This document shows, piece by piece, positions 1,449 through 21,613 of a stretch of 34,438 bases of DNA. How positions within the stretch are numbered: position 1 is the stretch's first letter; each line of letters opens with the position of its first letter. The translations under genes and the position numbers were made by a program. The notes under the pieces are model-generated. The model saw only the letters and a program-made list of their open reading frames with translations. It searched no databases and was not told the DNA's origin. Source of the stretch: Bacteroidales bacterium (lineage in GTDB: Bacteria > Bacteroidota > Bacteroidia > Bacteroidales > UBA932); the NCBI GenBank assembly GCA_017962025.1, contig JAGCWD010000074.1:1-34438 (forward strand). Reading direction: 5' to 3'.

Positions 1449-1910
1449 TTATTCTTCAGATTTCTTGAGTAATATGATGATTACTCCATTCGTGCCCCTG
1501 ACACCGTAGATGGCTGCTTCGGAGTCCTTCAGTACATCTACGGACTTTACTTCGTAAGGATTGATGCTTGAGATGTCATCGACAGTCACTCCATCGACTA
1601 TAAACAAAGGATCGGAGGGTGCTTCGATGGAATTGATCCCCCTGATATAAACCTTTGTAGAAGCAGGATCGGATCCTTCCACCCTTACTCCAGGGACCTT
1701 GTCACGGAAATAGTCGAAGATGGAATCGTACACGCGGTTGTCCTTGTTCTTGACGTGTCCGATCGAGCCGGACAGTTTGTTTTTCGAAGATTTCACATAG
1801 CCGACATCTACGGAATCGTCACTGCCGGCGATGGATGAGTCCTTGGAAGCTCCGCATCCTGCCGTCAGCAAGGGAATGAGAACCAAGGCGATAAGTGCAG
1901 GTCTTTTCAT
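1449..1910 (-). CDS. plug-only TonB-receptor-domain lipoprotein
   Basis: A 153-residue lipoprotein with lipobox LTAGC (lipidated Cys19). After a polar linker, residues about 55-150 match the plug domain of SusC-type TonB-dependent receptors. DYFRDKVPGVRV, VYIRGINS, PLFIVDGV and a final IYGVRGTNGVIII are the canonical plug phrases. No barrel follows: the protein simply ends after the plug. Its start lies three bases after the DUF389 stop, so it belongs to that operon. Stand-alone plug lipoproteins are known in Bacteroidota, but their role is not established. It could sit on the periplasmic face and interact with a barrel or TonB, but nothing here shows that. Confidence 0.8.
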   Translation of the reverse strand: MKRPALIALVLIPLLTAGCGASKDSSIAGSDDSVDVGYVKSSKNKLSGSIGHVKNKDNRVYDSIFDYFRDKVPGVRVEGSDPASTKVYIRGINSIEAPSDPLFIVDGVTVDDISSINPYEVKSVDVLKDSEAAIYGVRGTNGVIIILLKKSEE

Positions 1911-6554: not shown

Positions 6555-8033
6555 TTACCGTTGCCTGTCCTTGAGTTTGCGGACCGGATCGCAGGTAATG
6601 CCGATTCCCAGCTTGTTGAATGTCTTGCGATCAACCTCGCTGAGCATGACGGTAGAGTGGACCTGGGCACCCGCGAGGTTAGGCAGCTGGTCGAGGGCCA
6701 TCTTGCAGTTCTCATCGATGAGGCTCATCATCGAGATGGCGACCAGCACTTCATCTGTATGCAGGCGTGGATTCCGGCCGTGGAGATAGGTGACCTTGGT
6801 CTTCTGGATAGGCTCTATCATGGTCTGTGGTATCAGCTTGACATTATGGGCTATTCCTGCAAGATGCTTGAGAGCATTGAGCAGAAGGGCGGCACTGGGG
6901 CCAAGAAGGGAACTGGTCTCCGCCGTGAGTATGGTACCATCATTGAGCTCAATCGCAGCAGTTGCTGAGCTGGACCTGTCGAGGCGTTCCTTCGCAGCCA
7001 CGGTGCTTTTCCTGTAAGCCGTAGTGATTTTCGCCTTCTTCATCAATAGCACAAGCTTGTTGACCTCGGCCTCGGTAGCCTTTCCGTCTGCAAAGTTGCA
7101 AAGAGCTGTGTAATAGCGCCTTATGATTTCCTGAAGGGAGGCTTCCTTGCAGACCTCGTCATCGCTGATGCAAAATCCTACCATGTTCACACCCATATCG
7201 GTCGGCGACTTGTAAGGAGTCGATCCATAGATGTCGTCGAACAGGGCATTCATTACCGGGAATATCTCCACGTCACGGTTGTAGTTTACCGCAGTTTTGC
7301 CGTAGGCGTCCAGATGGAACGGGTCGATCATGTTGACATCCTCCAGGTCGGCCGTTGCGGCTTCGTATGCCAGGTTTACCGGATGGGTGAGAGGCAGGTT
7401 CCAGATAGGGAAGGTTTCGAACTTTGCGTAACCGGCCTTGATGCCCCTTTTGTTTTCCTGATAGAGTTGGCTGAGGCAGACCGCCATCTTGCCGCTTCCG
7501 GGACCGGGGGCGGTGACTACGACAAGCGGCTTGGTGGTTTCAACATAGTCATTCTTGCCGAATCCTTCTTCAGAGTCGATCAGAGCCACGTTATGAGGAT
7601 AGCCTTCTATGGTGTGATGGTAATAGACCTTTATTCCCATAGTCTCCAGGCGCTTTCTGTAAGCCTCGGCACTGGCTTGGCCGTTGAAGTGGGTGATAAC
7701 GACGCTGTTGACTCTCAGCCCCCTTTCCATGAACTCATCCCTGAGCCGGAGTACGTCTACGTCATAGGTTATTCCGAGATCGCTCCGGACCTTGTTCTTT
7801 TCTATGTCGACAGCGCTGATGACTATGATGATTTCTGCATCATCCTTCATCTGCATGAGCATCTTGAGCTTACTGTCCGGTTCAAAACCAGGAAGCACCC
7901 GGCTTGCGTGGTAATCGTCGAACAGCTTGCCGCCGAATTCCATGTAGAGCTTGTCGCCGAAGGTAGCGATACGCTGCTTGATGTGCTCAGATTGGATCTT
8001 GAGGTATTTGTCGTTGTCGAACCCGTATTTCAT
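6555..8033 (-). CDS. DUF1846 domain-containing protein
   Basis: A 492-residue soluble protein with no signal peptide, collinear with the DUF1846 family over its whole length. Recognisable stretches are the N-terminal GFDNDKYLKIQSEHIKQRI, the nucleotide-loop-like TAPGPGSGKMAVCLSQLY (about residues 164-181), KFETFPIWNLPL, and DPFHLDAYG followed by NYNRDVE. The Gly-rich segment resembles an NTP-binding loop, but no activity is established for the family. Length matches family members, so it looks intact. It is flanked by separate transcription units and has its own candidate promoter at 8060-8090. Confidence 0.9.
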   Translation of the reverse strand: MKYGFDNDKYLKIQSEHIKQRIATFGDKLYMEFGGKLFDDYHASRVLPGFEPDSKLKMLMQMKDDAEIIIVISAVDIEKNKVRSDLGITYDVDVLRLRDEFMERGLRVNSVVITHFNGQASAEAYRKRLETMGIKVYYHHTIEGYPHNVALIDSEEGFGKNDYVETTKPLVVVTAPGPGSGKMAVCLSQLYQENKRGIKAGYAKFETFPIWNLPLTHPVNLAYEAATADLEDVNMIDPFHLDAYGKTAVNYNRDVEIFPVMNALFDDIYGSTPYKSPTDMGVNMVGFCISDDEVCKEASLQEIIRRYYTALCNFADGKATEAEVNKLVLLMKKAKITTAYRKSTVAAKERLDRSSSATAAIELNDGTILTAETSSLLGPSAALLLNALKHLAGIAHNVKLIPQTMIEPIQKTKVTYLHGRNPRLHTDEVLVAISMMSLIDENCKMALDQLPNLAGAQVHSTVMLSEVDRKTFNKLGIGITCDPVRKLKDRQR

Positions 8034-8107: not shown

Positions 8108-8794
8108 CTAAAAGAAAATCCCCCTGACCAGGAACCAGATGACGGGGACAAGGAGGCCCGGAAGGTAATTCAGGGTCTTGCAGTCCTTGATGTTCAGTAT
8201 CGAAAGGCCTGATGAGATGATGAGGACACCTCCGACAATTGCGAGCTCGTTGACCAGTGTACCTTGCAGAAGGGGGCTGGAAGAGGCGAGTGTGGCGATG
8301 AGGTAGAACATTCCCTGCCAGAGGAAAAGGATGGGTGCAGCCAGGATGATTCCTATTCCGTAAGTAGTGGCGAACACCATCGAGGTGACCAGGTCAAGTG
8401 TCGAGTTGGTGAACAGGAAGGTATTGTCTCCCTGGAGTGCGCTGAGGACAGGACCGACAATGGAGAAAGTGCCGATACAGAATAGCAAGCAGGCTGAAAT
8501 CAGTCCCTGGGCGAATGATTCGCCTCCGAATCGGGAAACGAGCCTCTTTGTCCTTCCGTCAATGTCGAGAGCTGTTCCAACAATCCCTCCTATGGCAAGG
8601 CTGAGGATGAACAGGACGGGAAACTCGCTCTTTGGCATGTTCTGGACGAAGGAGTTTGCTCCAAGTGCCAGCGAAGCAAGTCCCATGGCATTGAAGAGGA
8701 TGCTGCGGTACTTTTCTCCGAGCCCTTTCTTGAAAAGAGCCCCTACCACAGATCCGACTATGATGCATCCGGTATTGACGATAGTTCCGATCAT
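8108..8794 (-). CDS. DUF554 family membrane protein
   Basis: A 228-residue inner-membrane protein matching DUF554 from end to end: MIGTIVNTGCIIVGSVVGAL at the N-terminus, then LFNAMGLASLALGANS, and a C-terminal LAIVGGVLIISSGLSIL followed by KTLNYLPGLLVP. About six to seven hydrophobic helices are visible. The family is widespread and sometimes described as a putative transporter, but no substrate is known. It diverges from the esterase gene, with only 38 bases between the two start codons. A near-consensus TATCTTTA lies in that gap on the minus strand. Confidence 0.88.
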   Translation of the reverse strand: MIGTIVNTGCIIVGSVVGALFKKGLGEKYRSILFNAMGLASLALGANSFVQNMPKSEFPVLFILSLAIGGIVGTALDIDGRTKRLVSRFGGESFAQGLISACLLFCIGTFSIVGPVLSALQGDNTFLFTNSTLDLVTSMVFATTYGIGIILAAPILFLWQGMFYLIATLASSSPLLQGTLVNELAIVGGVLIISSGLSILNIKDCKTLNYLPGLLVPVIWFLVRGIFF

Positions 8795-8823: not shown

Positions 8824-9996
<1,173 letters not shown>

Positions 9997-10003
9997 CTGA
10001 TCG

Positions 10004-11944
10004 ATGAGAATACATTATTTTCTGACGGCAATAGCCGTCTCCCTGACATTGGCAACAAGTGCCAGTGGCGCTGAAATCCAACGCATGGATCCTCCTTTCT
10101 GGTACACAGGAATGAAGAACCATGAGCTTCAGGTCATGTTCTATGGTAAAGGCATAGCAGAGTCAGGCTTCTCGATGAAAGACTATGCCGGGGTTACTGT
10201 TAAGGAAGTCGCCAAGGTCGGAAATCCCAATTACCTCTTCGTCTATCTGGACATCTCCTCCGAAGCCAGGCCTGGAACTCTTGTATTTCGATTCAAGGAG
10301 GGGCGGAAGACCGCTGAGAAGACTTTTGAGCTCAAACCCCGCAACACAAAGGCAGGAGCTATGGGATTCTCCACAAAGGATGTACTTTACCTGATTATGC
10401 CAGACCGCTTTGCCAATGGGGATCCTTCGAATGACACTTGGGAGAGTTTCCCTGTCAACCGTGAGAGCGGAGGTGCACATCATGGTGGGGACCTGAAGGG
10501 TATCAAGGACCATCTTGGTTATATCAATGACCTGGGTGTTACAGCCATCTGGCTCAATCCTGTTCAGTACAACCGCAGCAATGCCTCCCATGGCTACTCG
10601 ATTTCCGACTACTACATGATAGACCCACGTCTTGGGTCGAACGAGGAGTACTGCGGGATGATCGATGAGGCGCATAAACGCGGCATAAAGGTCGTTATGG
10701 ACATGATATTCAACCATTCGGGGAGTACCCACTGGTGGATAGAGGACATCCCTGACGACAGTTGGTTCAACCAGAATGACTTCGCAAGGAAACTGTCGGA
10801 GCGCCAGAAACAGGCGGCGGCCCAGCCTCAGCAGCCTCGGCAGGGACAGGGACAGCCCGGCGGATTCCAGCGTGGAAGGTTCAATGAGGGACTGACTACG
10901 ACAACACATTACAAGTGGGTCCTGATGGACCCGCATGCTCCCCAGTCTGAAAAAGACATCCTTCTTGACGGTTGGTTCTCCGGGGGTATGCCGGACCTTA
11001 ACCAGCGAAATCCCCATCTTGCAACCTATCTTATCCAGAACAGTATCTGGTGGATCGAATATGCCAGGATTGACGGAGTGCGAATGGACACGTATCCCTA
11101 TGCCGACTACGATTTCATGGTACGTTGGTGCGATGAAATCGAGGCTGAGTACCCTGACTTCAACATAGTCGGAGAAGGGTGGTATCCCCGTAATTCTGCA
11201 GCTGGCTGGTGGCAGCGTGGGTCAGCGGTCAACCTTCACGATTCCCACCTCAAGACTGTAATGGATTTCGACCTGACCTTCACTACCAAGAGGGAAATCA
11301 AGAAGGAAAGCAACACCAGTGAGGGCTCGGAGGCTGGTCTCTTCAAGATGTATGAAGTCATTACCCAGGATTTCCTCTTCCCGGATCCGAACCATGTCCT
11401 TACCTTCCTGGATAATCATGATATCGAAAGGTTCATGGACCCCGGAGATCCTGCATGGAAACTCAAGCAGGGACTTGCATTCCTGCTGACTACCCGAGGC
11501 ATCCCGCAGATTTATTATGGGACAGAAATAGCGATGGCAGGACGATCTGCCTTGCGGGCTGATTTCCCCGGCGGCTGGAAAGAGGATGCCGCAAACGCAT
11601 TTACCAAGGAAGGTCGTGATGCTTTCCAGAATGAGTGCTGGGACTTTGCCAGCAAGCTTCTCAACTGGCGAAGGACCTCCAAACCTGTGACAGAAGGTAA
11701 GCTTATACATTACACTCCGGACAATCAGACAAAGTGTTATGTCTATGCCCGTACTGATGGCAGGAACACCGTCCTCGTGATGCTTAATGGCTCTGATGAG
11801 GAGAAACAGGTGAACATGGGAAGGTTCAAGGAGGTTGTCAAGGACTACTCGAAGGGTAAGGATGCAGTCACTGGACAGATCGTCGATCTGACGGCTCCGG
11901 TCAACATTCCAGCAAGGGGCGTCTACGTTCTGGACCTTGAATAG
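10004..11944 (+). CDS. SusA-like GH13 alpha-amylase/neopullulanase
   Basis: A 646-residue exported enzyme; the signal peptide ends near SASGAE. An N-terminal cyclomaltodextrinase-type domain (about 24-115) precedes the GH13 barrel. Barrel motifs are HGGDLKGI, the region DMIFNHSGSTHWW, nucleophile Asp362 in DGVRMDTYPY, acid/base Glu391 in NIVGEGW, and Asp473 in FLDNHD. The triad is therefore complete. A C-terminal beta domain follows (about 560-646). The layout resembles SusA, which cleaves alpha-glucans in the periplasm. A Gln/Pro/Gly-rich insert of about 29 residues (from about 267) sits in the loop before THYKWV and makes the protein slightly longer than SusA. No SusC/SusD genes are nearby, which is unusual for this type. 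Confidence 0.92.
   Translation: MRIHYFLTAIAVSLTLATSASGAEIQRMDPPFWYTGMKNHELQVMFYGKGIAESGFSMKDYAGVTVKEVAKVGNPNYLFVYLDISSEARPGTLVFRFKEGRKTAEKTFELKPRNTKAGAMGFSTKDVLYLIMPDRFANGDPSNDTWESFPVNRESGGAHHGGDLKGIKDHLGYINDLGVTAIWLNPVQYNRSNASHGYSISDYYMIDPRLGSNEEYCGMIDEAHKRGIKVVMDMIFNHSGSTHWWIEDIPDDSWFNQNDFARKLSERQKQAAAQPQQPRQGQGQPGGFQRGRFNEGLTTTTHYKWVLMDPHAPQSEKDILLDGWFSGGMPDLNQRNPHLATYLIQNSIWWIEYARIDGVRMDTYPYADYDFMVRWCDEIEAEYPDFNIVGEGWYPRNSAAGWWQRGSAVNLHDSHLKTVMDFDLTFTTKREIKKESNTSEGSEAGLFKMYEVITQDFLFPDPNHVLTFLDNHDIERFMDPGDPAWKLKQGLAFLLTTRGIPQIYYGTEIAMAGRSALRADFPGGWKEDAANAFTKEGRDAFQNECWDFASKLLNWRRTSKPVTEGKLIHYTPDNQTKCYVYARTDGRNTVLVMLNGSDEEKQVNMGRFKEVVKDYSKGKDAVTGQIVDLTAPVNIPARGVYVLDLE
10801..10890 (+). other. 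Gln/Pro/Gly low-complexity insert inside the GH13 enzyme
   Basis: Codons here encode a run dominated by Gln, Ala, Pro, Gly and Arg (for example AAAQPQQPRQGQGQPGG). It interrupts the barrel loop between the FNQNDF and THYKWV segments. It is in frame and leaves the catalytic residues untouched, so it looks like a disordered surface loop. Confidence 0.75.
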
Positions 11945-11954
11945 TATATTAAGG

Positions 11955-12722
11955 ATGGCGATGCATTCCTTCCAGCTATTCCTGGCCGTGATGGCTCTGC
12001 TCGCCATCGTGGTGTTCATATGTCTGTTTTACGTTGACGCCGGTTACGGCAAATTCTACCAGCCCAAGTGGGGGCCGTCCATAGGTAACCGCCTGGGCTG
12101 GATCCTTATGGAAGCACCGGTATTCATTGCCATGCTTCTCTTATGGTGGTTTTCCGACAGGAGGAACGATCCGGTGAGGCTTGTGTTCCTGATCCTGTTC
12201 GAGCTACATTATTTCCACCGCTCCTTCATATTCCCTCTACAAATACGTGGCAGGAGTCGTATGCCTTTGAGTATCATATTGATGGGAGCTTTATTCAACA
12301 CCTTGAATGCTTTGATGCAGGGAGGTTGGATTTTCTATCTGTCACCTCTTGAGCGTTATCCTTCAAGTTGGCTTTCAAGTCTTCCTTTTATCCTGGGTAC
12401 GCTGTTATTCTTTGCCGGGATGTTCGTGAATATCGGTTCTGACTCAATAATCCGCAATTTGAGGCAGCCTGGTGACACGGCTCATTATCTCCCCAAAGGA
12501 GGCATGTTCAGATATGTCACCAGCGCCAACTATTTCGGAGAATTCGTAGAATGGGTTGGCTTTGCCATTCTGACCTGGTCATGGTCGGGAGCAGTGTTTG
12601 CACTATGGACTTTCGCCAATCTTGCTCCGCGGGCTTCCAGGATCTATGACATGTATTCCAGGGAGTTCCCGGACGAACTCGACACGAGCAAGACAAAGAG
12701 GATGATTCCCTTTATATTCTGA
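11955..12722 (+). CDS. 3-oxo-5-alpha-steroid 4-dehydrogenase (5-alpha-reductase, SRD5A family)
   Basis: A 255-residue membrane protein with about seven helices that aligns with vertebrate SRD5A over its whole length. Matching segments include WILMEAP (Glu53, equivalent to the catalytic Glu of QE in human SRD5A2), HYFHRSF (Tyr86), and FVNIGSDSIIRNLRQPG. SANYFGEFVEWVGFAILTW follows, and the terminal IPFIF is the same ending as the human enzyme. Family members use NADPH to reduce the delta-4 bond of 3-oxo steroids to the 5-alpha product. The start is ATG 11955, ten bases after the amylase stop; ATG 11961 is an alternative. The Gln that precedes the catalytic Glu in the human enzyme appears to be Met52. 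Neighbouring OYE and SDR genes support a steroid or bile-acid role. Confidence 0.92.
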   Translation: MAMHSFQLFLAVMALLAIVVFICLFYVDAGYGKFYQPKWGPSIGNRLGWILMEAPVFIAMLLLWWFSDRRNDPVRLVFLILFELHYFHRSFIFPLQIRGRSRMPLSIILMGALFNTLNALMQGGWIFYLSPLERYPSSWLSSLPFILGTLLFFAGMFVNIGSDSIIRNLRQPGDTAHYLPKGGMFRYVTSANYFGEFVEWVGFAILTWSWSGAVFALWTFANLAPRASRIYDMYSREFPDELDTSKTKRMIPFIF

Positions 12723-12726
12723 TAAT

Positions 12727-13971
12727 ATGCCCCAGATAGACTCTCCAATCTTCACCCCGGTACGTATCGGACCTGTGACCTTGCGCAACAGGATCATACG
12801 TTCCGCTGCATTTGAGAATATGGCATATGGAAACAAGCCTTCCCAGGACCTGAAGGATTACCATGTGGCGGTGGCACAGGGTGGAGTCGGGATGACAACT
12901 CTGGCATATGCATCGGTTAACCGGAGCGGTCTCTCATTCGACGGTCAGTTGTGGATGAGGGAAGAGATCGTTCCAGCCTTGAAGGAGATCACGGATGCAG
13001 TCCATGAACAAGGAGCCAAGGTCTCGATACAGTTGGGCCACTGCGGTAACATGACTCACCGTGCAACCTGTGGCTGCATGCCGGTAGGAGCCTCGGGAGG
13101 TTTCAACCTATATTCTCCTACCTTTGTACTTAAACTCAGGGTTGATGAAATTGGATCACTTGTTGATGACTTCGGTCGTTCTGTGGACCTTGCACGTCGG
13201 GCTGGGTTCGACTGTGTTGAGATCCATGCCGGTCACGGCTACCTCATCAGCCAGTTCCTTTCCCCTTACACCAACCATCGCCATGACAGTTTCGGCGGCT
13301 CTCTTGAGAACAGGATGAGATTTATGAAGATGGTCATCGGAAGGGTGATGGAGGAGGCCGGAGATGACATGGGAGTGATTGTCAAGATGAACATGCATGA
13401 TGGTTTCAGGCGCGGCATGCAGAGGAAGGAGTGTCTTGAAGTGGCCAAGGAACTGGAGAAACTGGGTGTTCATGCCATTATCCTTTCGGCAGGTTTTGTG
13501 AGCAAGGCACCTATGGAAGTCATGCGGGGGGCGATGCCGCTCCGTACCCTGGCGCACTACATGGATCCATGGAAGTTCTGGTGGCTAAAGGCAATGGTGC
13601 GTTTGTTCGGTCGAATGATAATCCCTACAGTTCCGTACAAGGATGCTTATTTCCTGGAAGACGCAAAGCAGTTCCGGGAGGCAGTCAGCCTGCCTTTGAT
13701 CTATGTCGGAGGGATGGTCTCAAGATCTTCTATTGAGGAGGTTCTTGGATCAGGTTTTGCAGCTGTCCAGATGGCGAGGGCACTCATCCGTGACACCGGT
13801 TTCGTTAACAAGCTACGCACCGGAGAAGTTGAATGCAGCGAATGCCGGCATTCGAATTACTGCATCGGCCGGATGTACACCCTTGAGATGAAATGTAACC
13901 GTTGTGCGAGTGAGCTTCCGCGCTCCTTGCGCAGGGAAATCGAAAAAGCTGAGAATAGATGGTCGCACTGA
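12727..13971 (+). CDS. BaiCD-like old yellow enzyme (probable 3-oxo-delta4-steroid/bile-acid ene-reductase)
   Basis: A 414-residue cytoplasmic flavoprotein of the OYE/2,4-dienoyl-CoA-reductase type. It begins TPVRIGPVTLRNRIIRSA and has the active-site run His167-Ala-Gly-His170-Gly-Tyr172 followed by LISQFLSPYTN and FGGSLENRMRF. The C-terminal FMN-phosphate site VGGMVSRSS leads into Cys370, Cys373, Cys379, Cys390 and Cys393, a probable Fe-S cluster with spacing different from the usual C-x2-C-x3-C-x11-C. It lacks the extra FAD/NADH domains of full-length BaiCD. Relatives reduce conjugated enones, including 3-oxo-delta4 bile acids to 5-beta products. It starts four bases after the 5-alpha-reductase gene and overlaps the SDR gene by 13 bases. 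Confidence 0.88.
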   Translation: MPQIDSPIFTPVRIGPVTLRNRIIRSAAFENMAYGNKPSQDLKDYHVAVAQGGVGMTTLAYASVNRSGLSFDGQLWMREEIVPALKEITDAVHEQGAKVSIQLGHCGNMTHRATCGCMPVGASGGFNLYSPTFVLKLRVDEIGSLVDDFGRSVDLARRAGFDCVEIHAGHGYLISQFLSPYTNHRHDSFGGSLENRMRFMKMVIGRVMEEAGDDMGVIVKMNMHDGFRRGMQRKECLEVAKELEKLGVHAIILSAGFVSKAPMEVMRGAMPLRTLAHYMDPWKFWWLKAMVRLFGRMIIPTVPYKDAYFLEDAKQFREAVSLPLIYVGGMVSRSSIEEVLGSGFAAVQMARALIRDTGFVNKLRTGEVECSECRHSNYCIGRMYTLEMKCNRCASELPRSLRREIEKAENRWSH

Positions 13972-14723
13972 TCACAGGAGGAAGTTCCGGAATGGGACTT
14001 GAATTCGCCCGCGGGCTTGGCGCCCGTGGTTATGACTTGTTGCTTGTCAGCAACAAGGAGGATGACTTGGCCGCAGCTGCTTCCACGCTTGAGGCTGAAT
14101 TCCCTGTGACAGTCCAAACTCGTTTTCAGGATCTTTCGAAGGCAGACGCTGCTGATGAACTGCATCAGTGGTGCATTGGAGAAGGTTTGGTCCCGGATGT
14201 CCTTGTCAATGATGCCGGAATGTTCTATTTCAAGGAACTGAATGTAGGAGACCTGGACCGGGTCCAGGCCATGATAAACCTTCATGTCACCACCATAACG
14301 AGGCTATGCATCCTGTTCGGAAGTGATATGAAAGAACGGGGGACTGGCTATATCCTCAATGTCTCATCGATGGCAGCAAGGATTCCCGCTCCGGGAATAA
14401 CCGTCTATTCAGCTACAAAGGCATATCTCCGCAGTTTCGGCCGTTCCCTTTCCTATGAGTTAGATCCTTATGGTGTGAAAATGACTACGGTTTGCCCGGC
14501 AGCCATAGCCACACCTCTGTACAGACTGGACCCTAAACTGCTTAATCTAGGTGTCAAAATAGGTCTTATCCGGAAACCGGAGTGGCTTGTCAGACGCTCT
14601 CTCAAGGCCCTTTTCCGTGGCCGCAGGGTACTTAGTCCCGCATTCATGAATATCTGGCTACCGCCTCTTATCGCCTCCATCCCGGACCCTCTGATTGCCA
14701 AGATATGGAAAAGATTAAAATAA
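13959..14723 (+). CDS. short-chain dehydrogenase/reductase (candidate hydroxysteroid dehydrogenase)
   Basis: A 254-residue classical SDR. It shows the Rossmann motif TGGSSGMG near the N-terminus, NDAG in place of NNAG, catalytic Ser137 in NVSSMAA and Tyr150-x3-Lys154 in YSATK. It ends with a hydrophobic, basic tail (IPDPLIAKIWKRLK) that might touch the membrane. The gene overlaps the OYE gene by 13 bases and the next gene by 19, so it is translationally coupled. Family and context suggest oxidation or reduction of a steroid hydroxyl group (position 3 would fit), but the regiospecificity cannot be read from sequence. Fatty-acyl or sugar substrates are not excluded. Confidence 0.9.
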   Translation: MVALITGGSSGMGLEFARGLGARGYDLLLVSNKEDDLAAAASTLEAEFPVTVQTRFQDLSKADAADELHQWCIGEGLVPDVLVNDAGMFYFKELNVGDLDRVQAMINLHVTTITRLCILFGSDMKERGTGYILNVSSMAARIPAPGITVYSATKAYLRSFGRSLSYELDPYGVKMTTVCPAAIATPLYRLDPKLLNLGVKIGLIRKPEWLVRRSLKALFRGRRVLSPAFMNIWLPPLIASIPDPLIAKIWKRLK

Positions 14724-15661
14724 GTCTCCTTGTCCTTCTGGCATGCGTCCTGCCTTTGTCTGCCCAGCGTGTCGAAAAGCTTCCTTTCGGGGATTTCGAA
14801 CACTGGACGGTACGTCATATAAAGGAATCCGCAATCCTTGGTGGAGAGGTGAAGACATTGTATCTGCCCGGTCCCGATGAGGTAATCGAAGGGAATAAGG
14901 TTTATGATTATACCAAGACTCCTTGGGCCTCCTCAAACGCTTATGCAAAGGTTTCAGGAGTGACCAAGACAAGCCTCTCGGTCGAGCCTGACAACGGTCC
15001 TGACGGACGTTGTGCAAAGCTTTCTACTGTGTTTGCTTCTTGCCGGGTGGCCGGACTTGTGGAGATTGAAGTCCTTGCTACCGGCTCCCTTTACTGGGGA
15101 AAGATGTTCGAGCCGATTACGGGGGTAAAGAATCCATACGGCAATATGGACTGGGGCCTTCCTTACACCGGTCATCCTACTGCACTCCTAGTCGATTACA
15201 AGGCCTTCCTGCCTGCGACTGGCAAACTGGTCAAGGGAACCACTTTCCGTAAAACTGAATTCCCCGGGGAAGACCCCTGCCAGGTCATGCTTCTTCTCCA
15301 GCGACGATGGGAGGATAACGACGGCAACATACATGCGGAACGCGTTGGTACTGCGGTATTACGCCTCAGCAGGAGTACATCAGGGTGGATAAAGAACCAC
15401 CGGATTCCGGTGATTTACGGCGATGCAAGCAAACAACCGGGTTATCGTTCCTATATGGGCCTGATTTTGGGAGAGAAGACTTTGTACGCAGTAAACAGTC
15501 GTGGTAAACGTGTCCCGATCCGTGAGGAGGGTTGGGCATCACCCGATACTCCCGGCACCCATGCCGTGCTCCAGATCTCCTCCGGCAGCAGGGGAGGTTT
15601 TACAGGGGCTCCCGGCAACACTTTATGGGTAGATAACCTTAGGATGGAATATGAGAGGTAG
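14705..15661 (+). CDS. exported PCMD-like (putative carbohydrate metabolism domain) protein
   Basis: A 318-residue protein with a signal peptide (about residues 1-20, ending PLSAQ). The mature part opens with LPFGDFEHW and closes with NTLWVDNLRMEYE, a pairing seen in the PCMD family of Bacteroidota surface or periplasmic proteins, which are thought to be jelly-roll-like. The middle is Gly-rich with beta character and no catalytic motif I can recognise. It overlaps the SDR genes on both sides (19 bases upstream, 11 downstream), so it is embedded in the redox operon despite being exported. It might bind the ligand or carbohydrate outside the cytoplasm. The family assignment is moderate and the function is unknown. 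Confidence 0.65.
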   Translation: MEKIKISLLVLLACVLPLSAQRVEKLPFGDFEHWTVRHIKESAILGGEVKTLYLPGPDEVIEGNKVYDYTKTPWASSNAYAKVSGVTKTSLSVEPDNGPDGRCAKLSTVFASCRVAGLVEIEVLATGSLYWGKMFEPITGVKNPYGNMDWGLPYTGHPTALLVDYKAFLPATGKLVKGTTFRKTEFPGEDPCQVMLLLQRRWEDNDGNIHAERVGTAVLRLSRSTSGWIKNHRIPVIYGDASKQPGYRSYMGLILGEKTLYAVNSRGKRVPIREEGWASPDTPGTHAVLQISSGSRGGFTGAPGNTLWVDNLRMEYER

Positions 15662-16478
15662 GATCATAATTACCGGTGCTACAGGTTCCATGGGTGCGGC
15701 TGCAACCCTTGCGCTGGCAGGTCAGGGGCATTCCATTGTGATGGCATGCCGTAATATCGTAAAAGCAGGAACCATTCGGGACAGTATCCTTGTAAGGGTG
15801 CCGGATGCTGAAATTGATATCAAGCTTCTGGATCTTTCCTCCATGGATTCTGTTTGCGAGTTTGTGAATGACCTTGGCACAGAACCGATAGATGCCCTGT
15901 TTAACAACGCGGGAACGATAAGCAGGAGCTATTCAATTACTTCTGACGGCCTTGAAAATACTTTTGCAGTCAATTACTTCGGGCCATATCTCTTGACAAG
16001 GCTACTTGTTCCAAGAATGCGAGAGGATGCCAGAATTGTGAATATGGTCTCGTTGACTTGTCGTTTCGTCACAGTTGATGAGAATTCTCTCCGCCCGGAG
16101 CCGAAAGACTTTTCACAACTGGGAACATATGCCCGTTCCAAACAGGCCCTACTCCGTTTCTCCATGGAGTTTTCGCGACGGTATCCTGGAATATGTGTCA
16201 ACCTTGCCGATCCGGGAATCGTCAATTCCAATATGATTTCCATGGGCCGCTGGTTCGATCCTTTGGCGGACAGGTTGTTCAGACCATTCTGCAAATCACC
16301 GGATAAGGGAGTGAAACCTGCCCTTAATGCACTGTCTTCAAGTGCAAAGGACCGGTATTTCGTGGGTAGTCACAGTAAAAGTATTCCTGCCAGATTCTTG
16401 GATCCGGAAATGGATCTTATTCTCTGGCAGGAAACGGAATCTATCCTATCTTCGTTTATTCCTAGAATATGTAATTGA
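15651..16478 (+). CDS. short-chain dehydrogenase/reductase, retinol-dehydrogenase-like
   Basis: A 275-residue SDR. It has TGATGSMG near residue 8, in which the usual second glycine is Ser13, then NNAG, and Tyr160-x3-Lys164 in YARSK. The GLENTFAVNYFGPYLLTRLL segment and PGIVNSN are typical of the retinol/WW-domain oxidoreductase branch. That branch reduces or oxidises lipophilic alcohols such as retinoids and steroids, which would fit a second hydroxysteroid step. It is the last gene of the plus-strand operon and overlaps the PCMD gene by 11 bases. Its 3' end overlaps the convergent Omp85 gene by 17 bases. Confidence 0.88.
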   Translation: MRGRIIITGATGSMGAAATLALAGQGHSIVMACRNIVKAGTIRDSILVRVPDAEIDIKLLDLSSMDSVCEFVNDLGTEPIDALFNNAGTISRSYSITSDGLENTFAVNYFGPYLLTRLLVPRMREDARIVNMVSLTCRFVTVDENSLRPEPKDFSQLGTYARSKQALLRFSMEFSRRYPGICVNLADPGIVNSNMISMGRWFDPLADRLFRPFCKSPDKGVKPALNALSSSAKDRYFVGSHSKSIPARFLDPEMDLILWQETESILSSFIPRICN

Positions 16479-17778
16479 GGCCGACGTTGATACCGATGTT
16501 GCCGTCGTTCGGATCCAGACACTTCGCAAACTCGAAGTTTATGTTGAAGTTCTGGTTCATGATAACATGCAGTCCGATACCGGCACCCATGTGGAGTTTT
16601 TCGGCGTTTCCCGTGTAAATCAACTTGGCGAGTTCATAGTCAGTCCCGGGGATATTGCCGTGTACCTTTGAAACGGCTGCTTTCTGTTCGTCCAGGTTGT
16701 ATGGCTTGATGATCATACCGGCATCGAAGAACGGATTGGTCACCAGGGTCCAATTCTGGTTGATCCAGCGGAACTTGGCAAAACTCCAGCGAAGCTCGAA
16801 ATTCGACCATGCGTAACTGTCGCCCATGAGTCGGTTTGAAGTCGTACCACGGACAGTACAAGTTGATCCAAGGCCTTCGTTGTTAACCTGTTTCATATTG
16901 AGTGACTGGATGTTCTGGAGAAGATAGAAGGGAGCCTTGCCGGCTATGAGCCCCTGGTAGGCAAGATGGTATCCTAAGGTCAGGCGATCCTGTACGAGAG
17001 GGAAGAATTGTTTCCAGTGTGCAGCTAACTTGAGGTAATTGTTGTCATGCTTGGAGATGATGTCCGGGGAACCAAAAGCGTAAACTTCAAGGTTTGATCC
17101 GCGGGTCGGATTGTTTTCATGGTCACGGCTGTCATAGACCACTCCGGCCTTGAACTCCAGATGCTGGCCTCCGTCCTTCTCTGCTTCAGGGATGACTCCG
17201 TTCTGCACGTAGAGATCGTATAAAGAAGTGGTCCCGTCGGTGAGACCCTTGTTTCTGGCATGGCCTGTGGTCATCTTCCAGAAGGTTATTCCTCCTGCCC
17301 AGCCCCAATTGCTATCGCCGAAATTACCCTGCAGGCAAGTCATGATGCGGAAGATGTCACGCTTCATAATGAAGAAGCCCAGTCCGTCATCTGTGATCCT
17401 GTCCAATTCTGGTATGTATAGTGAAGATGCACCGTTGAATCCATAGAAGGAATAGGTGTTGTTGCCAAAAAAAGAAACAGAAGCAGAGACGCGCAGGCCG
17501 GGAATAAGATATTTGCTGTCAAAGAAACTGTGAAGCACAGTATTCCCCTTTGAGTAGCGGGACACCTCTACATTAGCTTTCCAAACGTATTCTGGATAAG
17601 TGGAGCCATCACCATACCAGTAGATATCTGATAGGGCACCATAATGCCAGCCAAGGTCGGAAGAATATCCGATGGCAGGGAGCGGGCCGAAGTTCAACCC
17701 TGTCTTTGTTACCTCCTGGGCATATGAAGATAGAGTGCAACTTAAAACCAATGCAGTTGCTAATAGTGTTCTTTTCAT
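16462..17778 (-). CDS. Omp85/BamA-TamA family outer-membrane barrel without POTRA domains
   Basis: A 438-residue exported protein with a signal ending SSYAQ. The sequence reads as an Omp85 surface-antigen barrel: VVYDSRDHENNPTRGSNLEV (the DTRD-x-PTxG motif), then CTVRGTTSNRLMGDSYAWSN (the VRGY-like lid-loop region), and a C-terminal strand ending NYIF with terminal Phe. No POTRA repeats precede the barrel, so it is probably not the essential BamA. Stand-alone barrels of this type are common in Bacteroidota and poorly understood. It starts one base after the acyltransferase stop and is the last gene of the symporter operon. It could serve secretion, lipid handling or passage of a hydrophobic substrate. 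Confidence 0.85.
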   Translation of the reverse strand: MKRTLLATALVLSCTLSSYAQEVTKTGLNFGPLPAIGYSSDLGWHYGALSDIYWYGDGSTYPEYVWKANVEVSRYSKGNTVLHSFFDSKYLIPGLRVSASVSFFGNNTYSFYGFNGASSLYIPELDRITDDGLGFFIMKRDIFRIMTCLQGNFGDSNWGWAGGITFWKMTTGHARNKGLTDGTTSLYDLYVQNGVIPEAEKDGGQHLEFKAGVVYDSRDHENNPTRGSNLEVYAFGSPDIISKHDNNYLKLAAHWKQFFPLVQDRLTLGYHLAYQGLIAGKAPFYLLQNIQSLNMKQVNNEGLGSTCTVRGTTSNRLMGDSYAWSNFELRWSFAKFRWINQNWTLVTNPFFDAGMIIKPYNLDEQKAAVSKVHGNIPGTDYELAKLIYTGNAEKLHMGAGIGLHVIMNQNFNINFEFAKCLDPNDGNIGINVGLNYIF

Positions 17779-17779
17779 A

Positions 17780-18997
17780 TCAGTTTATTATATGATCATG
17801 TATTTGCGAATAAAACTCCTTGAGGTCACTGTGTCCGAAGAACAGGCGGATATCCGAAAGAAGGATGCGGCCATGCTCAACGGTTTCATAGAATACAGTG
17901 TATGATCCCAGGAAAAGGATTAATGCCACAATTGCCGCTTTGATCGGGAGACAAAGGAAGAACACAATCCCCCAGATGACAAGAAGCAAGGGCATCAATG
18001 CGAACTTGACTCCGAAATGGGCTGTACGTACGAACGCCTTGTCCCTGATCTTTTTTGAGATGCAAGTGGAAAGGATCCACATCGGCGAAGCCGTGATTGC
18101 AGCAAAAAGGAACAGTGGCAGGAGTACCAATCCTAATAAACACTTCCCAACGATCCTCAAGCCAGGCCATCTGTGTCCGAAAGACCATGAAGACAGTCGG
18201 GCTTCCTTGCGTTGGTTCTCGAATCCTTCAGCTTTGCTGATCAGGTCATCTCCTGCGGCCATGGCAAAGTCAGGCCCTGCCATTTTGGTGAGCATCCATC
18301 TGCCGGTGTAAGTCTCGTCGTCGGGAAGGCAGGTAAAGAGGGAGGATATCCTTTGCCTGAGAATGCCGAGAAGCGACCGGTAGATCTTCCCTTCCTTCAT
18401 TCCTGGATTGGAAGATATGAATTCTGTTACGTTGATCGCCTTACCATAGTGGATGGACATTGGAGTCCTGATCCTGAAATAATCCTGATATTCAAGGCCT
18501 ACGGGGACAATATAGACCGGCTTCCTGCTTCCGAAGCGTTCATTTGCCAACAGCGAGGTACGTACAATTCCTTTTTTCAACGGAAGGAGTGAATGTTTGG
18601 GACGATGGGTACCTTCGCAGAACATGCAATACTTCATTCCGTTGTCCATGCACTCTACGACTTCTTCCATGGTCTTGTAGTTATTCAGCACTGCCTGTGC
18701 CCCATCCCTGACACGGGGGAGTGGAAGTATTTTCAGGAACCTAAGGATTCTGTTGACCGCAGGTTTTCTGAAGATGTCAGCCCTAGCACCGTACAGCGTT
18801 GCTTCTCTCCAATCCTGAAGGATGACCAGGGCATCCATAAGGGTGTTGCAGTGGTTGGGAGCAAAAATGACGGCACCGTCGGTGGGTATGTTTTCCTTAC
18901 CTTCGGAGGAAATATGACTGAACAAGCTTCTGGTGGCATCGTCGCACCATAATCTTGCCCAGGAGTATCTCCAATCCTTTTCGTAAGGTTTCCTCAT
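17780..18997 (-). CDS. PlsC-like 1-acylglycerol-3-phosphate acyltransferase family protein
   Basis: A 405-residue membrane-bound acyltransferase. The N-terminal half carries the acyltransferase blocks: PNHCNTLMDAL (a His-x5-Asp variant of the usual His-x4-Asp), CEGTHRPKHSLLPLKKG, and VYIVPVGLEY. The C-terminal half has at least three hydrophobic helices (about residues 280-385). Relatives transfer acyl groups from acyl-ACP or acyl-CoA to glycerolipids. The gene is wedged between the symporter and the Omp85 barrel with one-base gaps on each side. An ordinary phospholipid role is most likely, but the position also allows acylation of an imported lipid such as a sterol, which is only a guess. 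Confidence 0.87.
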   Translation of the reverse strand: MRKPYEKDWRYSWARLWCDDATRSLFSHISSEGKENIPTDGAVIFAPNHCNTLMDALVILQDWREATLYGARADIFRKPAVNRILRFLKILPLPRVRDGAQAVLNNYKTMEEVVECMDNGMKYCMFCEGTHRPKHSLLPLKKGIVRTSLLANERFGSRKPVYIVPVGLEYQDYFRIRTPMSIHYGKAINVTEFISSNPGMKEGKIYRSLLGILRQRISSLFTCLPDDETYTGRWMLTKMAGPDFAMAAGDDLISKAEGFENQRKEARLSSWSFGHRWPGLRIVGKCLLGLVLLPLFLFAAITASPMWILSTCISKKIRDKAFVRTAHFGVKFALMPLLLVIWGIVFFLCLPIKAAIVALILFLGSYTVFYETVEHGRILLSDIRLFFGHSDLKEFYSQIHDHIIN

Positions 18998-18998
18998 G

Positions 18999-19952
18999 CT
19001 ATCGGTTGAGATGCTTGTCCCGGAGGTTGAAGATAGTAGCGACAGTCAGTCCCGAGATAATATGCCAGATACCCCACCAGGCGGTAATGACCAACATTCC
19101 TCCATGAGGAGGGAATCCGGTGAAAATGGAAGTACCGAGCATCAATGCCAGACCCAGCCCGGAATTCTGGATGCCGGTCTCAATAGTAAGGGTCCTTCTG
19201 TCAGGGTTGGGAACCTTGAATGCTGATCCCATCCCGAATCCAATCCCAAGTGCCAGCAGGTTATGGATCAGGACTACAACAAAAATGTATTTGACACATT
19301 TGAGGAAGGCTTCGAGGTTTCCGGTGAAGGAAAGGATCACCATGGCTATGAAAAACAGGATGGAAATCCACTGGAAAGGCTTCTTCAATGCTGCAGATAC
19401 TTTGGGAAGGAAGTGCGAGCAGAGGATGCCTAGTGTGAGTGGAATACCAAGCAGTATGAATATGGTCTTGAAAACATCCCATAGGGGAATTACAAGGGTA
19501 GGTACCTCGGCAGCTACTTGTGAGGTGTGCAGATACAGGTTACCCCAGATAAAAAAGTTTGTGGGCGTCATGAAGACCGCCAGGGCGGTACTGATCGCCG
19601 TCAGAGACACGGAAAGCTCGATGTTCGCCTTTGAAAGCGAGGACATGAAATTGGAAATGTTTCCACCAGGGCACGACGCGACCAGTATCATGCCAAGTCC
19701 CATCATAGGAGAGATCCATTTCCCGAGGCACAATGCCAGAAGGAAGGTAAAGATGGGTAGCAGGACAAGTTGGCATAGCATCCCTAGAAGGACTGACTTC
19801 GGCTTCTTGAACACTTCGACGAAGATGTGAGGCTTGATGCCGAGGGCTACTCCGAACATTACGAAGGCCAGCACGATGTTAATCGTGTTCATGCCTCCTG
19901 CGTTCAGGGTCACATCTATCTGATCGATAAGGGTGGCGGTTTCCGGACTCAT
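18999..19952 (-). CDS. bile acid:sodium symporter family protein (ASBT/BASS type)
   Basis: A 317-residue ten-helix-type membrane protein. The crossover motif CPGGNISNFMSSLSKANIELS places Ser100-Asn101 where bacterial ASBT homologues have their sodium-site Ser-Asn. The second motif IETGIQNSGLGLALML keeps the Glu and Gln of the second sodium site. Both sodium sites therefore look intact. ASBT-type members co-transport bile acids or other organic anions with Na+; related BASS proteins carry pantoate or pyruvate. ATG 19952 is chosen because it lies 17 bases from a perfect -7 element, while the open frame upstream starts only with TTG. It is first in a three-gene operon facing the 5-alpha-reductase operon. 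Confidence 0.9.
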   Translation of the reverse strand: MSPETATLIDQIDVTLNAGGMNTINIVLAFVMFGVALGIKPHIFVEVFKKPKSVLLGMLCQLVLLPIFTFLLALCLGKWISPMMGLGMILVASCPGGNISNFMSSLSKANIELSVSLTAISTALAVFMTPTNFFIWGNLYLHTSQVAAEVPTLVIPLWDVFKTIFILLGIPLTLGILCSHFLPKVSAALKKPFQWISILFFIAMVILSFTGNLEAFLKCVKYIFVVVLIHNLLALGIGFGMGSAFKVPNPDRRTLTIETGIQNSGLGLALMLGTSIFTGFPPHGGMLVITAWWGIWHIISGLTVATIFNLRDKHLNR

Positions 19953-19969
19953 GTTAATACTGAAATGTG

Positions 19970-19977
19970 CAAATATA
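19970..19977 (-). promoter_or_regulatory. -7 promoter element (TATATTTG) for the symporter operon
   Basis: The minus strand reads TATATTTG 17 bases ahead of ATG 19952, supporting that start over the upstream TTG at 20012. On the plus strand, TAGCGTTTG (19994-20002), one base longer than consensus, lies 21 bases before the divergent gene at 20024 and may be its -7 element. Confidence 0.5.
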
Positions 19978-20023
19978 TAAAAAATGATTAAATTAGCGTT
20001 TGTAACCCCCAATACCTTGATTT

Positions 20024-21613
20024 ATGAGACAATATGCATTTTTGGCCACATTAGCGGTCATGCTGATTCCACTCTTGTCTGGATGCGGCGAAAAGAAGGC
20101 AAAGCCACAGTTGCCGCAAATCTCAATCTTCTGTGACCATATCGAGTCGGTTGCCCGGCAGAATGGAATTCCTTTTGCTGAAGCGGCGGCCAAGATCAAG
20201 GAAATTGGTTTTGCCGGTGCTGATGTAAGGGTTTTCCAGAAACCTGAAGAAATAAAGATCCTCGACAGTCTCGGCTTCGGCCATTCCTGCGCCATCACCG
20301 ACATAGATTATTCGCAGGGTGACCAGACCGAATTGGAAGACAAGACCTTGGCTTTCATGGAAGAGAATGGGTACGACCGTCTCCTTCTGGTTACAGGCCT
20401 GATGCCCAGGGAAGGATTTTCATCAAAAGATATCGCTGCTGCCAGGCAAAGGATTGCCGCCTTTGCCTCCAGGGTCAAAGGGCGTGGCTACACAATCATG
20501 GTTGAAGATTATGACAGCCCACGTTCACTTTGCTTCAATGCGGAGAGACTCGATTCACTTTTTGCCGTGGCCAAAGACCTTGGACTGGTGTTCGATTCTG
20601 GAAACTTCCAGTTTGCCGGAGAGGATTCTATGGAACAGCTTGAGCATTTCCTGGATAAGGTCGGACATGTCCATCTTAAGGATAGGGCATCTGTCACGGA
20701 CATGACATGCGTTCCCATAGGTACCGGTTGCATTCCTATCGGGTCAGTTATCCGGACTCTGGTAAAGAACGGTTACAGCGGCTGGCTTACTGTCGAGCAG
20801 TTTGGTTCCCGGAACATGCTTGAAGACTGCGCGGTTTCATTCAAGAACATCAGCAAGGCTATTGAAATGTCGAACCCTGATAACTCGAGTCCCAAAGTCC
20901 TCGTGTTATATTATTCACAGAACTCATCCACTAAGACTGTTGCAAAAGAGATTAGCAACCGCTTGTGTGCTGACATTGAAGCAATTGTACCTGTAGTCCC
21001 TTATGATGGTGACTATCAGGCAACCATTGAGCGAGGTAGAAAGGAACGGGAAGAAGGTATCCTTCCTGAGATACAGCCGATTAAATCGGATATCAAATCT
21101 TACGATATCGTTTTCCTCGGATATCCTATATGGTTTGGAACCTATGCCCCTCCGATTGCTACTGTCCTGAGCTCCCAGGATTTCTCCGGAAAGAAGGTTG
21201 TACCATTCTGTTCGTTCGGCAGTGGCGGACTTGATTCCAGCACCAAGGATTTGAAGGATAAACTTCCCAATGTGAAAATCCTTCCGGGATATGGTGTAAG
21301 GGCTGCCCGTGTGGACGCTGTTCCAAGTGAAATCGACAGGTTCCTTAAGGAGAATGGGTTCATTGATGGAGAAATCACCAGGTTGGAGGATTTCCCAGCC
21401 GCCCATCCGGTTTCCGATGAAGAGTCTGCAATCTTCGATGCCGCCGTTGGAGATTATCCGATGATCCAGGCAAAAGCGAGTGAAGTCACCTCCCGCCCGG
21501 TACCCGGCGGAACTGAATATCTGTTTACGGCTGCTTCTACGCCTAACCCGATAAAGGTCTATGTACTGGTTGAAGAAGGGAAGGAGCCTGTTTTCACCCA
21601 AGTACTCAGGTAA
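20024..21613 (+). CDS. fusion lipoprotein: xylose-isomerase-like TIM barrel plus flavodoxin
   Basis: A 529-residue lipoprotein with lipobox LLSGC (Cys21). Residues about 30-280 form a sugar-phosphate isomerase/epimerase-like TIM barrel (QISIFCDHIES, YTIMVEDYDSP, LVFDSGNFQF, VGHVHLKDRAS, WLTVEQFG). Residues about 290-445 are a flavodoxin: KVLVLYYSQNSSTKTVAKEI is the FMN-phosphate loop, followed by IVFLGYPIWFGTYAPP and FCSFGSGGLDSS. A tail of about 70 residues, with a beta-rich end, follows. The two domains are each recognisable and read through without a frameshift. The lipobox implies the flavodoxin is outside the cytoplasm, which is unusual. It may couple a redox step to an isomerase or lyase reaction on an exported sugar; the substrate is unknown. 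It diverges from the bile-acid symporter gene. Confidence 0.88.
   Translation: MRQYAFLATLAVMLIPLLSGCGEKKAKPQLPQISIFCDHIESVARQNGIPFAEAAAKIKEIGFAGADVRVFQKPEEIKILDSLGFGHSCAITDIDYSQGDQTELEDKTLAFMEENGYDRLLLVTGLMPREGFSSKDIAAARQRIAAFASRVKGRGYTIMVEDYDSPRSLCFNAERLDSLFAVAKDLGLVFDSGNFQFAGEDSMEQLEHFLDKVGHVHLKDRASVTDMTCVPIGTGCIPIGSVIRTLVKNGYSGWLTVEQFGSRNMLEDCAVSFKNISKAIEMSNPDNSSPKVLVLYYSQNSSTKTVAKEISNRLCADIEAIVPVVPYDGDYQATIERGRKEREEGILPEIQPIKSDIKSYDIVFLGYPIWFGTYAPPIATVLSSQDFSGKKVVPFCSFGSGGLDSSTKDLKDKLPNVKILPGYGVRAARVDAVPSEIDRFLKENGFIDGEITRLEDFPAAHPVSDEESAIFDAAVGDYPMIQAKASEVTSRPVPGGTEYLFTAASTPNPIKVYVLVEEGKEPVFTQVLR

Follow-up and report, generated by a model that had tools for sequence, protein, structure and literature searches.

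The stretch of DNA analysed here, a Bacteroidales contig of 34,438 nt (the window, whose numbering is used throughout), carries between positions 11955 and 16478 of its + strand five tightly packed genes that very probably encode chemistry on the A ring of steroids, as argued by their protein families, conserved catalytic residues, linkage and co-occurrence. The first gene, 5AR (11955..12722; Pfam PF02544 Steroid_dh, 9e-41), encodes a membrane protein of the SRD5A type, i.e., a 3-oxo-5-alpha-steroid 4-dehydrogenase, with its start at ATG 11955 and an alternative in-frame TTG at 11937. It is followed by OYE (12727..13971; PF00724 Oxidored_FMN, 1.3e-55), a single-domain FMN ene-reductase presumed to be a 5-beta-reductase or delta4 reductase, and by SDR1 (13959..14723; PF00106 adh_short, 1.2e-35), a classical short-chain dehydrogenase (SDR) and presumed hydroxysteroid dehydrogenase (HSDH). 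PCMD (14705..15661; PF13201, 3.3e-21), an exported protein of the putative carbohydrate metabolism domain family, and SDR2 (15651..16478; PF00106 adh_short, 3.7e-19), a retinol-dehydrogenase-like SDR presumed to be a second HSDH, complete the set. A preliminary description of the sequence had proposed this five-gene run, with 5AR and OYE four bases apart and overlapping or nearly abutting genes thereafter, and both points are borne out: the gap is 4 bases, and the OYE/SDR1, SDR1/PCMD and PCMD/SDR2 pairs overlap by 13, 19 and 11 bases, respectively. Families were assigned with Pfam and NCBIfam profile searches, and the SDRs were assigned by the best tblastn score.

The 5AR protein scores 139.8 bits against PF02544 (cut-off 22.6) and shows nearly full-length homology to a bacterial 5-alpha-reductase (PDB 7c83, 1.9e-52) and to human SRD5A2 (7bw1, 5.9e-43). 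Its E59 and Y92 residues align with E57 and Y91 of SRD5A2, which we take to be the catalytic pair of that enzyme, and are invariant in the 20 aligned rows, the window included. The extended homology to characterised members and the aligned Glu/Tyr pair confirm the gene as an SRD5A homologue, as had been described. A second, weak match to the Steroid_dh family (23.2 bits) occurs elsewhere in the genome of the window (G000:C118:24490-24699).

The superfamily of 5AR also includes SRD5A3 and the enoyl-CoA reductases, and the PDB search also returned a weak match to the ART-1 enoyl-CoA reductase (33 bits, 2.9e-07). One could thus envisage a non-steroid role, with 5AR acting on polyprenal or another enone lipid, OYE serving as a general enone detoxifier, and a shared stress role accounting for the linkage. 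However, the same search gives 150-181 bits against steroid 5-alpha-reductases, 5AR is scattered across the order (63 of 295 sampled genomes), as would not be expected of a core lipid enzyme, and it co-occurs with OYE and has SDR neighbours, as discussed below. We therefore regard this alternative as highly improbable.

The OYE protein (414 aa) consists of one OYE barrel and a cysteine-rich tail, and no FAD/NAD(P)H domain was detected in it by the Pfam and NCBIfam searches. Its score against the NCBIfam BaiCD model (642 aa) is 181.6 bits, split over two stretches of which the better covers residues 8-261, and stays well below the cut-off of 825. The earlier label "BaiCD-like" was therefore discarded, as the score falls short and the FAD/NAD half is missing. 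The residues H167, H170 and Y172 are kept in 71/71 relatives; among the cysteines of the tail, C373 and C379 are found in 71/71, C390 in 70/71, C393 in 60/71 and C370 in 17/71. Judging from these features, the protein has the appearance of a shortened iron-sulfur OYE whose cysteine spacing is its own and which would be served by an external electron donor.

Two residue positions are reported to distinguish the hormone reductases (Asn/Ser) from those of the BaiCD clade (Tyr-or-Ser/Glu) (PMC12238238). At these positions, mapped by us via a shared Tyr, the window and 71/71 relatives have Gly171 and Gln176, which places OYE in neither class. The observation bears on a possible function of the cassette in inactivating steroid hormones or corticoids (progesterone, testosterone, cortisol) that arrive via blood, saliva or feed, a role to which the homology of 5AR to human SRD5A2 and the reduction of progesterone by related flavoenzymes of gut Clostridia (PMC12238238) would lend some weight. 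The absence of the hormone-clade pair argues against it, as does the hormone supply of the rumen, which should be low, and we consider this role improbable.

Both SDRs belong to the SDR family by profile and carry its motifs as judged by eye, TGxxxGxG and YxxxK in the case of SDR1. No NCBIfam model reaches its cut-off for either protein among the matches listed (25 of 202 for SDR1 and 25 of 141 for SDR2). PCMD has an N-terminal signal sequence, likewise read by eye, and a lipobox-like Cys that is not conserved in the 27 rows of its alignment, from which L108 and L118, having a stop within the stretch, were omitted. Over some 100 residues, PCMD matches putative glycoside hydrolases of known structure (3hbz, 1.3e-8). 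That a steroid operon should encode an exported protein with a link to carbohydrates leads us to guess that the substrate could be a glycosylated steroid.

On this basis, the following sequence of events can be proposed. An SDR would convert the 3-hydroxyl to a ketone, OYE would interconvert the 3-oxo-delta4 steroid and its 5-beta form, and the membrane-bound 5AR would use NADPH to pull the delta4 ketone towards the planar 5-alpha form, after which the SDRs would install the 3-hydroxyl in its alpha or beta configuration. PCMD, being exported, would probably meet the steroid outside the cytoplasm, perhaps as a glycoside. We infer these reactions, their stereochemistry, the substrate and the role of PCMD.

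Conservation and co-occurrence

A scan of species genomes yielded at least 591 relatives of 5AR, of which the best 80 were kept with their flanks. Within 8 kb of 5AR in these loci, OYE is found in 74/80, SDR1 in 67/80, SDR2 in 46/80, PCMD in 25/80 and all four in 15/80; the counts are lower bounds, because 14 of the loci have short flanks. The order 5AR OYE SDR1 PCMD SDR2 of the window recurs in 4/80 loci, the order 5AR OYE SDR1 SDR2 in 20/80, and SDR1, with or without PCMD, lies ahead of 5AR in 13/80. The recurrence of OYE, SDR1, SDR2 and PCMD beside 5AR goes beyond what chance would give. SDR2, which had been put forward as new to this locus, is evidently a common neighbour of 5AR.

In an order-wide set of 33 loci (32 fetched from the 63 that are 5AR-positive, plus Phocaeicola massiliensis), OYE lies within 6 kb of 5AR in 26, and PCMD in 3, where it is divergent and upstream. 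The co-occurrence is also seen at the genome level. Among 37 genomes searched, a full-length OYE (at least 450 bits) is present in 14 of the 15 with 5AR and in 0 of the 22 without, 6 of the latter giving weak OYE matches of 87-112 bits. It should be noted that the 80 loci and the numbered genomes overlap, the two sets not being independent.

The preliminary description regarded PCMD as embedded in the operon. The protein is indeed exported and encoded inside it, but it is a recurrent partner rather than a merely embedded one. With a subfamily profile built mostly from linked copies (3/27 rows unlinked) and a full-length threshold of at least 383 bits, members were found in 15/61 genomes, namely 14/24 with 5AR vs 1/37 without (Fisher 1e-6, overstated owing to relatedness), the lone 5AR-negative case being the 61% complete G046. 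Within the genus, the figures are 11/20 5AR-positive and 0/17 5AR-negative genomes. The association exceeds linkage, since PCMD lies on a different contig from 5AR in 9 of the 14 genomes having both. The genome of the window, which is 81% complete, has the cassette copy as its sole PCMD match, and no PCMD of the cassette subfamily was found in 10 of the 24 5AR genomes. From this distribution, we judge it likely that PCMD is functionally coupled to the 5AR system; it would add an exported partner to a pathway that the review passages drawn on here describe by enzymes alone.

No relative was found in the viral contig collection. Two plasmid records came up, one of Phocaeicola massiliensis at 58% identity and one of Nocardia farcinica at 33%, and both are labelled non-mobilizable. 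The clade of the window (27 loci; see below) has varied surroundings, 135/224 flanking open reading frames of at least 180 aa being singletons among the 80 loci, and some pairs within it, such as L057/L063, have flanks in common. A 1.78 Mb contig titled Pseudoflavonifractor, a Firmicute (L121, JAMPAQ010000001.1), carries a Bacteroidales-like 5AR-OYE-SDR1-SDR2 set with a 5AR identity of 62%, which would be either a mislabelled genome or a transfer. The suspicion of a decayed cassette in G018 (locus L037, G018:C78:28347-30354) does not hold for 5AR, with 0 stops in its aligned stretch; the OYE stretch has 1, which leaves the decay uncertain.

Habitat and candidate substrates

A quick tree built from 89 rows of 5AR places the window in a clade of 28 (SH-aLRT 99). 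Habitats were taken from organ words in the record titles of the relatives, and abomasum, which lies upstream of bile, was scored as non-forestomach. All 15/15 organ-titled rows of the clade are from rumen, reticulum or omasum (sheep, goat, yak, cattle, buffalo, roe deer), as compared to 2/16 forestomach rows outside, where the remainder are 4 from abomasum and 10 from duodenum, hindgut or faeces (Fisher 5e-7, relatedness ignored). The count omits the 12/27 named-record rows of the clade that have no organ title, four of them labelled RUG.

Bile acids are normally absent from the rumen (PMC11193847). Moreover, a canonical bile salt hydrolase (BSH), defined by us as a full-length PF02275 match above 120 bits (the Pfam cut-off being 20.4), occurs in 0/13 congeneric genomes with the window-type 5AR vs 4/7 with a diverged 5AR (about 52% identical), and in 1/17 congeneric genomes lacking 5AR. 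Six of the seven diverged-type loci have common neighbours that are missing from the window. A bile acid would be a poor fit for the natural substrate, because the organ-titled relatives in the clade come from the forestomach and a full-length BSH is found in 0/13 genomes. The claim of a bile-acid cassette can be followed as regards the look of a steroid A-ring cassette, while bile acids as its natural substrate are doubtful. The habitat would make them an unlikely main substrate in the clade of the window, and that the main natural substrate is something other than a bile acid seems moderately probable. In keeping with the cassette's steroid families and the habitat of the clade, we propose, with the scales about level, a forestomach variant of the Bacteroidales 5AR/flavin-reductase/HSDH cluster that would act mainly on dietary plant steroids. 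The most likely candidates among these would be steroidal sapogenins or phytosterol-derived ketosteroids, bile acids being at most incidental.

The sapogenin products epismilagenin, smilagenone, smilagenin and tigogenin comprise 3-oxo, 3-hydroxy, 5-beta and 5-alpha compounds. Their formation needs 3-oxidation, delta4 reduction and setting of the 3-hydroxyl, which matches the repertoire expected of the cassette. Work on sheep reports that hydrolysis of the saponins is followed by oxidation and reduction of the sapogenins, which gives these four compounds before duodenal uptake (PMC10385484). Saturation and epimerisation of diosgenin are placed in the rumen (PMC5535167), as is the hydrolysis, and the epimerisation continues in caecum and colon (PMC10385484, PMC5535167). 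The portions of the literature on ruminal sapogenin conversion drawn on here, including these two papers, do not name an enzyme for the reduction or epimerisation. If the proposal holds, the cassette would supply candidate genes for both, a matter of practical interest as deposits of conjugated epismilagenin are blamed for hepatogenous photosensitisation (PMC5535167). That the natural substrate is specifically a plant sapogenin or phytosterol can be advanced only tentatively. An explicit version, in which the cassette is the sapogenin A-ring machinery of the rumen, converting diosgenin-type steroids to the four products after PCMD has bound or trimmed the glycoside, appears unlikely; were it true, the gut allo-bile-acid cluster would be related to a pathway for plant steroids.

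Several observations weigh against a forestomach pathway for plant steroids. As regards the habitat, six RUG records, a name which we take to stand for rumen uncultured genomes, lie outside the clade, and counting RUG gives 19/19 inside and 8/22 outside; forestomach life is thus not peculiar to the clade, given these six and the four abomasum records outside it. The BSH contrast spans two lineages, amounting to little beyond one event, and the 13 metagenome-assembled genomes are 63-97% complete. Partial PF02275 matches of 20-58 bits, above the Pfam cut-off, occur in 8/13 of them, and we have taken these as other hydrolases of the superfamily. As regards the substrate, diosgenin requires a delta5-to-delta4 isomerase, none being evident in the cassette, and tigogenin could be plant-derived. 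Among the 99 proteins flanking the 27 clade loci (the two nearest open reading frames of at least 180 aa per side, mechanically chosen), no glycosidase family is recurrent and no Pfam family occurs more than 4 times.

The same holds for what is known of bile acids. Rumen contents given bile acids form allocholic acid (alloCA), isolithocholic acid (isoLCA) and dehydrolithocholic acid (DHLCA), so that bile-acid activity is present there, and other genes (baiN, BASS and an epimerase/dihydroorotate dehydrogenase cluster) have been proposed for it (PMC11193847); an SRD5A-type reductase is not among the 15 known enzymes named in the portion of that paper drawn on here. Should the forestomach variant proposed above be right, it would also provide candidate genes for the alloCA and isoLCA so formed. 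Alternatively, the locus might be an ordinary allo/iso bile-acid cassette, with 5AR, a 5-beta-reductase and HSDHs interconverting 5-beta and 5-alpha secondary bile acids, to which the bacteria would be exposed by reflux, coprophagy or downstream passage. The hindgut genomes G056 and G060 combine the cassette core with BSH, related cassettes are found in the hindgut in horse-faeces records (L075, L084, L097, L106) and in Barnesiella-type records, and the core is the same as that of the Parabacteroides merdae cluster, where disruption of the 5AR prevented the formation of allolithocholic acid (alloLCA) derivatives (PMC10382948). Set against these points are the forestomach titles of the clade, its lack of full-length BSH and the normal absence of bile acids from the rumen, and we consider an ordinary bile-acid role rather unlikely. 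If dietary plant steroids are indeed the main substrates, caution is called for before a 5AR cluster of Bacteroidales is in each case ascribed to bile-acid metabolism.

Neighbouring genes

The cassette was initially delimited as a five-gene operon. The five genes stand, but the co-directional run begins further upstream, with an esterase (8833..9996, +) and a cyclomaltodextrinase-like amylase (10004..11944, +), both assigned by Pfam and neither a part of the conserved cassette. Since these genes are co-directional and separated by gaps of only 7 (esterase-amylase) and 10 bases (amylase-5AR), the transcript may comprise seven genes. A homologue of the esterase (84% identity) is also found downstream of the cassette in locus L028. 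The exact motif TANNTTTG, which we assume to be a promoter motif of the Bacteroidota type, is absent from the stretches scanned upstream of the esterase, amylase, 5AR, OYE and SBF genes, a single weak variant being present at 8709. Scans for sigma-70 promoters and terminators gave chance-level matches only, and Rfam at gathering thresholds gave no match.

A convergent operon on the - strand, composed of genes for an Omp85 protein (16462..17778), an acyltransferase (17780..18997) and an SBF symporter (18999..20012; PF01758, 4.6e-38), faces the cassette. The symporter belongs to its family by sequence (PDB 3zuy, 6.4e-28), with scores below the NCBIfam cut-offs of both the bile acid symporter TIGR00841 (172 bits vs 326.3) and PanS (100.6 vs 400). 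None of the three genes occurs within 8 kb of 5AR in the related loci (0/80), and the SBF-acyltransferase pair is found on other contigs in several congeneric genomes, including 5AR-negative ones such as G002 and G012. Uptake of the substrate by a facing ASBT-type symporter, as suggested earlier, was rejected as unsupported in view of this linkage and placement, and we judge the operon to be unrelated to the cassette. An SBF homologue of at least 60% identity is present in 10/13 congeneric genomes with 5AR vs 4/10 without (p 0.10). In G005, a PCMD gene abuts an SBF gene.

Further from the cassette, a gene at 20024-21613 (+) encodes a 529-aa protein in which a xylose-isomerase-like TIM barrel (AP_endonuc_2) is fused to a flavodoxin domain. 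Half-length homologues are encoded close to the cassette elsewhere; those of L061 and L063 correspond to the first half and those of L028 and L033 to the flavodoxin half. A DUF1846 gene (6555-8033, -) is located about 4 kb upstream of the cassette, and DUF1846 also occurs near 5AR in L054, L061, L064 and L076 and in the diverged-type loci L043, L045 and L046; this neighbourhood is perhaps a mark of an ancestral location. The gene at 1449-1910 (-) encodes a 153-aa protein for which Pfam recognises only the plug domain of TonB-dependent receptors, the barrel being absent.

Comparison with known systems

OYE is similar to the Fe-S flavoenzymes BaiCD and BaiH and to 2,4-dienoyl-CoA reductase in having an OYE barrel and a similarly placed C-terminal cysteine cluster. 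It differs from them in ending after the cysteines, without the FAD/NAD(P)H domains, and would thus require another electron donor. Its common cysteine spacing, CX5CX10CX2C, is also unlike the CX2CX3CX11C that we take to be typical of those enzymes. The 5AR protein, in turn, shares with SRD5A2 and 7c83 the nearly full-length homology and the Glu/Tyr pair, the difference being its bacterial operon partners. The bile acid 5-alpha-reductases BaiP and BaiJ of Firmicutes catalyse the same net reaction as is presumed for 5AR but are distinct from the membrane-associated 5AR of Bacteroidetes, which the gene of the window resembles (PMC9645264).

The closest known system is the 5AR/NADH:flavin oxidoreductase/3-beta-HSDH cluster of Bacteroidales making allo-bile acids (PMC10382948), which substantiates the earlier remark that 5AR, OYE-type and SDR genes occur together in such bacteria. 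By the published description of this cluster (Parabacteroides merdae, Odoribacter laneus, Bacteroides dorei), the 5AR, the OYE-type reductase and the SDR follow one another in the same order as here. Human-gut Phocaeicola massiliensis is alike, carrying 5AR-OYE followed by a homologue of SDR2 (42% identity), and on this account SDR2 may be the counterpart of the SDR of the published cluster and SDR1 the addition. The window differs from the allo-bile-acid cluster in having two SDRs and an exported PCMD, in belonging to a forestomach clade, and in the lack of a full-length BSH in the 13 congeneric genomes. The 5AR-OYE-SDR core was thus already known, while PCMD is a supported new partner.

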